DNA from: Nodosilinea nodulosa PCC 7104
Lineage (GTDB): Bacteria > Cyanobacteriota > Cyanobacteriia > Phormidesmidales > Phormidesmidaceae
Direction of reading: 5' to 3'
DNA: 64,000 nt
Assembly (NCBI RefSeq): GCF_000309385.1
Contig: NZ_JH976537.1
Location: 4,203,984 to 4,267,983, forward strand
Below, piece after piece: positions 2,488 to 4,029 of the stretch (position 1 is the first letter of the stretch; each line of letters opens with the position of its first letter). Below the pieces are notes generated by a model. That model ran no database searches. It had not been told where the DNA came from and saw nothing but the letters and a program-made list of their open reading frames with translations. A program made the position numbers and the translations under genes.

Positions 2488-4029
2488 CTACCGGAGGTTC
2501 TCCAAACTGTAGATCGGCTGAAGGACGGCTTTGCCCTTCAGCGCCAGTCGGCCCAAAAATCCGCAGTCATAGTCGGCGGACAGGGCCTCGTAGGTGGCGG
2601 CATCCAGCAGAATTTGGTTTTGGGCCGCACGGCTCATCAGCCGCGCGGCGGTATTGACCGTGTCGCCCAGCACGTTAAACTCTCGTCGTCCGCGAGGTTC
2701 ACCAATTTCGGCGGCAAACACCTGGCCGTAGGTCAGCCCCATGCGGCAGGTAACCGGTAGGGGCTGGCCCTGGCGAAAAGGGGGCCTCAGCTTAGCCACT
2801 AAGTCGCGAATGGTTAGCAGGGTTGCGGCTGCCTGCCGAGGCGCATCGATCTCAGGGCTGAGAACACCAAAATGAATCAATATTTCTGAGCCGACGGAGT
2901 GGTAGGTCACCTTTTGCAAAATGCCGCGCCGCCGCTCCACGGCACCGTTGATCAGGGCAAAGGCGTGGGAAAAGCAGCTGACAATGCCGTCGGTGTCCTC
3001 GGGATAATCGGCGTCCGCAGCCTCCGGGAGGCCAATTAAGTTGATAAAGGCTACCGCTGCCGTCGGAAATGCGGGGGGAATACGGCGATCGGCGGCTGTA
3101 TTGACCAGCAGCTGCAGCACCGGACGCGGCAGGTAGCTGGCCAGCGGTTCAAGGGTTTGCAGGCTGGCCTCAATTTCTCGAATCAGGCCCGGCACACTGC
3201 GGTCAAATAGCACTGTACTAGCGGGGCGGCGGCGGTTCAGGGTGAGATCGTATTCGCCCAGCGCTTGGGGGCTCAGGTCGTCAACCACCAGGCCGCCCGC
3301 CGCGTTGGGCTCTAGGCGCAAAGATGATGGCGCCATCTGCAAGCACCCGGCCTTGCTCAGGCACACCCGACCCATCGCGCCAGCTCCTTCGGTTTGCTTG
3401 GCGGTCAGCACCGTTTGGCCCAGCAGCACGTGGGCGCGGCGCATGGGAGTACCAATGTCAGCGCTCACAAACGGCCCTGAGTGAATGCCCAGCCGCATTT
3501 GCAGCGATAGCGGCCCTTGGGAGGTCTCCAGGTTGGCAAAGTTGGCCATGGCCCGCTGCATGCGTAGCCCCGCATAGATAGCCTGAACCATTTCTCCGTT
3601 GTCGCCCTCAGACTGGTAGGCCTCATGGCAAAACTGCACCAGCATCGCGTCGCCCGTAAACTCCAGCAGGTTGCCACCAGCCTTGCTCACCAGGTCTACC
3701 ATCTGAGCAAAGTAGTCGTTGATGATGGTGAGCAGGGTTTCGGCACCGGCTCGCCCCGCCGCTGCGTTGGCCGCAAAAAGCGGCGTGAACCCGGCTAGAT
3801 CGGTAAACAGCAGGCTGCCCCGGTGCCAGCGATGGCGCACTTCAGGGCCAGTGGGGGGATGCTGAACCACATCTCGCGGCACGTAGTCAGTCAGCACATG
3901 CTGTAGGGTGCGGAGATGGTCAAATACCTTGCCTAGGGTTTTGGCGGAGGGGTCAACCCATAGGGCAGCGTATAGATCTGCCGGGGCCAGATCCCGCAGG
4001 CTGCGCTCAATGCTCTCCAGTTCTGCCAC
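2488..4029 (-). CDS. class III nucleotide cyclase with two cyclase homology domains
   Basis: This 513-residue soluble protein has two class III adenylate/guanylate cyclase domains in one chain (about 70-230 and 320-490). The first domain keeps both metal-binding aspartates (D77 in LFTDLAGFT, D127 in FTGDAML). Its purine/transition-state positions are Q205, L208 and Q212. The second has lost the metal pair (N330, S381) but keeps D456, N459 and R463 in VLGDTVNTAARL. This is the C1/C2 division of labour seen in mammalian adenylyl cyclases and soluble AC, so one active site per chain is expected. There is no sensor domain or membrane segment. The start is GTG at 4029 with an AGGGA upstream. The product, cAMP or cGMP, cannot be read from the sequence. 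Confidence 0.85.
   Translation of the reverse strand: MAELESIERSLRDLAPADLYAALWVDPSAKTLGKVFDHLRTLQHVLTDYVPRDVVQHPPTGPEVRHRWHRGSLLFTDLAGFTPLFAANAAAGRAGAETLLTIINDYFAQMVDLVSKAGGNLLEFTGDAMLVQFCHEAYQSEGDNGEMVQAIYAGLRMQRAMANFANLETSQGPLSLQMRLGIHSGPFVSADIGTPMRRAHVLLGQTVLTAKQTEGAGAMGRVCLSKAGCLQMAPSSLRLEPNAAGGLVVDDLSPQALGEYDLTLNRRRPASTVLFDRSVPGLIREIEASLQTLEPLASYLPRPVLQLLVNTAADRRIPPAFPTAAVAFINLIGLPEAADADYPEDTDGIVSCFSHAFALINGAVERRRGILQKVTYHSVGSEILIHFGVLSPEIDAPRQAAATLLTIRDLVAKLRPPFRQGQPLPVTCRMGLTYGQVFAAEIGEPRGRREFNVLGDTVNTAARLMSRAAQNQILLDAATYEALSADYDCGFLGRLALKGKAVLQPIYSLENLR

Follow-up and report, generated by a model that had tools for sequence, protein, structure and literature searches.

Class III nucleotidyl cyclases of the single-domain type carry all catalytic residues in their one catalytic domain and act as homodimers, and the full-length soluble adenylyl cyclase (sAC) of mammals has an NTPase and TPR region behind the second of its two cyclase domains, C2. 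Human sAC (ADCY10), in its truncated C1-C2 form of 55 kDa (sACt), is reported to hold all catalytic elements in one chain and to bind bicarbonate beside the active site via Lys95 and Arg176; when either residue is changed to Ala, the stimulation by bicarbonate is nearly gone (PMC12867704). According to the same 2026 report, the sea urchin and salmon enzymes, each of which is without one residue of this pair, respond to pH and not to bicarbonate, and insect sACs have Lys at both sites (PMC12867704). Arg176 of human sAC is described as keeping Asp99 off the metal until bicarbonate takes Arg176 (PMC12250328). A Thr residue has also been reported as a predictor of bicarbonate regulation (PMC3383692), which we read as sAC Thr405, and bicarbonate reportedly stimulates the cyanobacterial cyclase CyaC (PMC4284465). 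The split active site itself is already known, both from human sAC and from Plasmodium AC-beta, whose catalytic motifs lie over two domains, which suggests intramolecular pairing; unlike the protein described here, AC-beta keeps the predictive Thr, and its domains are interrupted by charged inserts (PMC3383692).

The window, by which we mean the whole stretch of 64,000 nucleotides of Nodosilinea nodulosa PCC 7104 that was analysed, contains a tandem class III nucleotidyl cyclase gene on its minus strand (2488..4029). This gene runs from a GTG start at 4029 to a TAG stop at 2490-2488 and encodes 513 aa, a size near that of the 55-kDa human sACt (PMC12867704); the plus-strand frame translated over 2488-4029 is riddled with stops. 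In a Pfam scan the protein matched PF00211 in two stretches (E 5.9e-28; best stretch, residues 72-227) and no other family at E up to 0.1. The single NCBIfam match, over domain 1, was to the TOMM kinase/cyclase fusion TIGR03903, at 21 bits and thus far under the cut-off of 705.75 (a homologue, L016, scores 72 bits), and there is no kinase part here. An N-terminal extension (residues 1-61; 3847..4029, minus strand), with a mean column conservation of 0.67 over 37 aligned homologues, ends in a YxP segment, and a similar segment precedes C1 in the bacterial sAC-like proteins compared. Behind it, on the same strand, come cyclase domain 1, of C1 type (residues 62-235; 3325..3846), a linker and pre-C2 helix (residues 236-317; 3079..3324), delimited by alignment and mostly of low pLDDT in both AlphaFold2 (AF2) models, and cyclase domain 2, of C2 type (residues 318-513; 2491..3078). 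The NTPase/TPR region that follows C2 in full-length sAC is absent: the open reading frame stops at 513 aa, and Pfam shows PF00211 alone.

The catalytic residues are divided between the two domains. Equivalences were taken from an alignment with human sAC, and the roles of the residues follow PMC12867704 and PMC12250328, as far as these reports describe them. Domain 1 has both metal aspartates, Asp77 (3799..3801, minus strand; human sAC Asp47) and Asp127 (3649..3651, minus strand; Asp99), as the first-pass annotation of this stretch had stated, with residue numbers that fit the GTG start. Its Arg179 aligns with human sAC Lys144. At the sites of the catalytic Asn/Arg pair of single-domain cyclases, domain 1 has Leu208 and Gln212; among eight aligned single-domain cyclases of the same genome, the Asn is present in 8/8 and the Arg in 7/8. 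In domain 2, Asn330 and Ser381 replace the two metal aspartates, in line with the earlier statement that this domain lacks the metal pair. It carries the base-recognition residue Lys373 (2911..2913; human sAC Lys334), Asn452 at the site of the base-contacting Thr405 (2674..2676), and the catalytic pair Asn459 (2653..2655; Asn412) and Arg463 (2641..2643; Arg416), all encoded on the minus strand. The first-pass annotation had instead singled out Asp456, Asn459 and Arg463; all three are present, but Asp456 is the Asp in a common motif, GDxVN, and no substrate residue, and we replace that set with Lys373/Asn452/Asn459/Arg463. With the metal Asp pair in C1 only, Lys, Asn and Arg in C2 only, and the order C1-C2, the 513-aa protein resembles human sAC. 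It shares its fold with the single-domain cyclases Spirulina CyaC, Synechocystis Cya2 and Pseudomonas aeruginosa CyaB, but differs from them in dividing the catalytic residues between two domains.

Conservation was followed in an alignment (A6) of 37 homologues with a lowest pairwise identity of 39% and 30 clusters at 90% identity; two rows (L081 and L082) are N-terminally partial. The broken copy of genome G038, the split copy of G430 and an N-terminal fragment of G457 were excluded from the count, as were L032-L036, which repeat L006, L005, L004, L012 and L073, judging by identical sequence at the residues compared. A separate 38th homologue outside the 37-row alignment, L031, has identical key residues except for Ala at the Ser381 site. 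Asp77, Glu123, Asp127, Arg179, Lys211, Asn330, Ser381, Asn452 and Asn459 are invariant in 37/37, Asp456 is kept in 34/37, and Lys498 was left uncounted in L064 and L065, whose matched range ends before that residue. The claim that domain 1 lacks the Asn/Arg pair therefore stands for the window protein and, as far as the Asn is concerned, for the whole family (Leu, Thr, Gln or Arg at position 208, never Asn), but for the Arg it does not hold throughout, position 212 being Gln in 29, Arg in 4, Lys in 3 and Asn in 1 of the 37. The four homologues with Arg there are L007, L011, L014 and L016, in spite of a domain 2 without the metal pair.

The C2 substrate residues vary a little more, with Lys in 33/37 at the Lys373 site (Asn in 3, Gln in 1) and Arg in 34/37 at the Arg463 site (Tyr in 2, His in 1). 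In eight pairs of genes, dN/dS (NG86) was 0.06-0.16, with dN and dS of 0.094 and 0.96 for the window gene and L002, 0.142 and 1.05 for the window gene and L006, and 0.215 and 1.89 for L064 and L065, estimates that are unsure where dS is near or above 1. The main branch and the side branch formed by L064, L065 and L071 both look to be under constraint at the codon level. As Asp77, Asp127, Asn330, Ser381 and Asn459 are invariant in the 37 homologues and dN/dS is 0.06-0.16, the split-residue pattern is not due to chance.

In the side branch (L064:1390-2952, L065:1363-2982 and L071:208-1788), the C1 metal Asp pair is kept and both C2 residues are lost, the base Lys being replaced by Asn or Gln and the catalytic Arg by Tyr or His; L063 has lost the Lys alone. 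These three side-branch proteins are possible pseudo-enzymes, judging from their residues. Genome G430 has the side-branch copy L071 together with a normal-type copy, L072, which is split into two open reading frames, and in G038 the gene is broken (L018:1101-2064), residues 21-130 and 343-509 lying in separate open reading frames and the middle being absent. One might extend the pseudo-enzyme reading to the family as a whole, as a nucleotide-binding protein that keeps the fold and the binding of ATP and metal and makes little or no cyclic nucleotide: L064, L065 and L071 have lost the equivalents of Lys373 and Arg463, and L063 that of Lys373, and yet dN is far below dS for L064 and L065; row 39 of a Foldseek search is 6yii, by its title an ATP-binding protein of P. 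aeruginosa that resembles class III cyclases. Against it, the full set of Asp77, Asp127, Lys373, Asn459 and Arg463 is found in 33/37 homologues, including the window protein, and drift is unlikely to preserve such a set. We regard this reading as unlikely for the window protein.

Each domain is related to its own counterpart in sAC. With phmmer against the PDB, human sAC was matched at E 3e-13 over residues 68-508 of the query and so in both domains, the best sequence match, ahead of sAC, being the single-domain CyaB (1.1e-17). The family C1 profile gives human sAC C1 61.5 bits and human sAC C2 4.7 bits, the family C2 profile gives C2 51.4 and C1 10.6 bits, and the preference has the same direction in 5/5 bacterial sAC-like proteins; with either family profile, the single-domain cyclases reach 41-68 bits. 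The C2 domain of the window protein prefers a sAC-like C2 profile over a single-domain cyclase profile by a small margin (69.8 versus 61.6), and for C2 of L017 the single-domain profile wins (88.2 versus 67.3). In a 42-row tree that comprised 11 of the 37 family members, five bacterial sAC-like proteins, human sAC and 8 of the 12 other cyclase loci of the same genome, family C1 grouped with sAC C1 (support 97/96) and family C2 with sAC C2 (100/98), although long-branch attraction is possible given the long human sAC branches (1.9). Three other groupings, chosen after the tree was known, were rejected by AU tests: a tandem duplication of the family's own, with its C1 and C2 in one clade (p 0.013), family C2 with the single-domain cyclases (p 0.005) and family C1 with them (p 0.016). 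Two marks of C2 are shared with human sAC. One is FxNL at the first metal site, whose Asn also occurs in L051 and L067, with Ser or Lys there in L052, L068 and L069; the other is a stretch between the Lys and the Gly of the C2 hairpin that is longer by four residues. Taken together, the profiles, the tree, the AU tests and these marks make it most likely that the fused cyclase and sAC go back to one tandem ancestor.

Closer to home, C1 and C2 of the cyanobacterial sAC-like tandem proteins L051 (1313 aa), L052 (1292 aa), L067, L068 and L069 group with C1 and C2 of the family. Behind C2, where the window gene ends, a domain scan of L051 showed AAA_16 and, below the threshold, TPR matches, and the frames of L052, L067 and L069 likewise differ from it in running to about 1300 aa. 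The genes for L051 and L052 lie at L051:692-4633 and L052:571-4449. In 145 genomes drawn from the class, the C1-C2 part of L051 matched 4 at 1e-25, one of them through a member of the window cyclase family.

Structure models were built with AF2 from seven sequences, and both are weak (full protein, pLDDT 57.2 and pTM 0.51; residues 61-513, pLDDT 60.3 and pTM 0.53). The best 24 Foldseek rows for the first of these weak models are all human sAC (E 5.5e-24 to 1.1e-19), at an rmsd of 15-17 Å. With VIA-align, single domains came top for the first model (Z up to 23.4), and the two-domain rows of AC9, AC5 and sAC had Z 20-22. For the trimmed weak model two-domain cyclases were on top, AC9 with Z 26.4 (372 residues, 5.8 Å) and the AC9/AC5 rows with Z 20.4-26.4; human sAC was matched over both domains at Z 20.7-22.2 (366-387 residues, 5.7-6.3 Å). 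With AC9 and AC5 above sAC, the fold search with the trimmed model fails to separate sAC and the membrane cyclases, and the models are compatible with domain pairing and do not prove it. The intramolecular C1/C2 layout like that of mammalian sAC, as first proposed for this gene, is supported at the sequence level by the phmmer match over both domains and by the grouping of C1 and C2 with their respective sAC counterparts, next to the 24 best Foldseek rows of the weak model, and one composite sAC-like active site appears well supported by sequence.

As each domain has a half-site only and the genome has 12 other loci with cyclase domains, domain 1 of one chain might instead pair with domain 2 of another chain or with another cellular cyclase. 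The two domains are, however, fused in 35/37 rows, and in the other two, which end at a contig edge, as far as they reach; in human sAC, the C1-C2 fragment reportedly has all catalytic elements in a single chain (PMC12867704). Pairing between chains seems to us the least probable of the readings considered, and a highly improbable one.

We think it probable that the gene product belongs to the sAC lineage and is a soluble adenylyl cyclase working as a single chain, with one intramolecular C1/C2 site and without bicarbonate activation via a sAC-type site. C1 and C2 would fold head to tail into one pseudo-heterodimer, with one working site at their interface to which C1 would contribute the metal aspartates Asp77 and Asp127 and the pyrophosphate-facing Arg179, and C2 the base-recognising Lys373/Asn452 and the pair Asn459/Arg463. 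The second, pseudo-symmetric site, without metal aspartates, would be dead. Two-metal catalysis in one composite site per chain would yield cAMP, which is the most likely product because Lys373 is kept; some uncertainty about product and substrate comes from the partner Thr/Asp being Asn. A monomeric state, which had also been suggested, would follow by analogy with sAC. The genome has, in addition to the 12 other cyclase-domain loci (from 14 PF00211 matches, two of them in the tandem cyclase gene), 19 matches to cNMP-binding domains, 18 of them above the cut-off, and cyclic-nucleotide output is therefore plausible.

The suggestion that the enzyme is possibly bicarbonate-responsive finds no support in the comparison with sAC. 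At the sites of Lys95 and Arg176, the protein has Glu123 (3661..3663, minus strand) and Lys211 (3397..3399, minus strand), and Asn452 is found in place of the predictive Thr, each without exception among the 37 homologues (site roles as reported in PMC12867704 and PMC3383692). The substitutions of Lys95 by Glu, Arg176 by Lys and Thr405 by Asn set the protein apart from human sAC, with which it has about 20% identity in structure-based alignments. The mycobacterial cyclase Rv0386 has Asn at the base position. The Thr is present in human sAC and in 5/5 bacterial sAC-like proteins, and Asn in 0/14 comparison sequences. The five bacterial proteins, which differ from the window protein in this Thr and in having Lys, His or Arg at the Glu123 site, are also without the mammalian Lys/Arg pair (K/G, K/G, R/Q, H/C and H/C at the two sites). 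Bicarbonate activation via a site of the Lys95/Arg176 type is not expected here, because those sites hold the invariant Glu123 and Lys211.

On this rival reading, the protein would be a bicarbonate-activated, sAC-like cyclase that serves a phototroph as inorganic-carbon sensor. In its favour, the C1-C2 layout is that of bicarbonate-sensitive sAC, a cyanobacterial CyaC is reported to be stimulated by bicarbonate (PMC4284465), and Lys211 retains one positive charge at the Arg176 site, where insect sACs have the Lys/Lys combination mentioned above (PMC12867704). What speaks against such a sensor is the Glu and the Asn in 37/37 homologues, together with the reported near-abolition of stimulation by Ala at Lys95 or Arg176 and the unresponsive sea urchin and salmon enzymes (PMC12867704); we hold it to be very unlikely. 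It is tempting to speculate that Glu123 is a built-in bicarbonate: its carboxylate, at the HCO3- site, might tie up Lys211 and free Asp127 for the metal, so that this sAC would be constantly active, or would be controlled through the protonation of Glu123 instead of by bicarbonate. That Glu123, facing Lys211, permanently does the job of bicarbonate is a guess, and a rather doubtful one.

Full-length homologues (E below 1e-200) are present in 12 of 26 genomes of the same genus, homologues at E <= 1e-30, fragments counted, in 27 of 63 genomes of the same family, and in a phylum draw 13 of 386 genomes had one, the broken G038 copy counted. A search with side-branch L071 gave 12 of these 386 genomes at 1e-60, every one already found with the window protein. 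The named contigs of close relatives belong to Nodosilinea, Leptolyngbya and other filamentous or metagenome cyanobacteria (six loci; 67-83% identity over the best segment).

A DUF4346 gene and a gene for a 123-aa coiled-coil protein adjoin the cyclase gene in 7/7 genus-level genomes (the window, L010, L031, L032, L033, L034 and L035, the latter equal to L012), and a FemAB-like gene lies upstream in 6/7, being absent from the 6-kb upstream flank of L035. In the window, the downstream neighbour is a small PterinBD-DUF4346 protein (1992-2426). A transposase of the IS1634 family (14-1300; NCBIfam E 6.9e-73) is encoded at the start of the window, with some 1.2 kb between it and the cyclase gene. 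None of nine neighbours in the window was found at 14 loci outside the genus (L013-L015, L036, L054-L058, L060 and L062-L065, from 13 genomes, L013 and L056 being in one genome), ten of which have flanks of about 1.5 kb. Eight flanking genes of five of these loci are mutually unrelated (GNAT, Calx-beta/RTX, methylguanine methyltransferase, phosphoribosyl-AMP cyclohydrolase, SRAP, Rieske, FtsH-like and ParA-like). The comparison of the seven genus-level genomes and the 14 outside loci yielded no functional partner, and the genus-level neighbours say little about function because the outside loci compared, mostly with short flanks, showed none of them next to the cyclase gene. A promoter and terminator scan gave 2 and 2 matches, versus 1.0 and 2.8 in shuffles.

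A literature search by titles and the beginnings of abstracts gave no description of this tandem cyclase family, which does not prove that there is none. Judged on sequence, what is new here is the combination of the invariant Glu/Lys and Asn substitutions with the missing tail, in Nodosilinea-type cyanobacteria. The protein would thus be a compact bacterial relative of the catalytic core of mammalian sAC, without the large tail, and it cautions that a split C1-C2 cyclase in a phototroph need not be a carbon sensor. The Glu/Lys pair, invariant in 37 homologues at the supposed bicarbonate-sensing sites, offers a naturally occurring test case for the sAC switch model and complements the 2026 report that the sea urchin and salmon enzymes respond to pH rather than to bicarbonate (PMC12867704).
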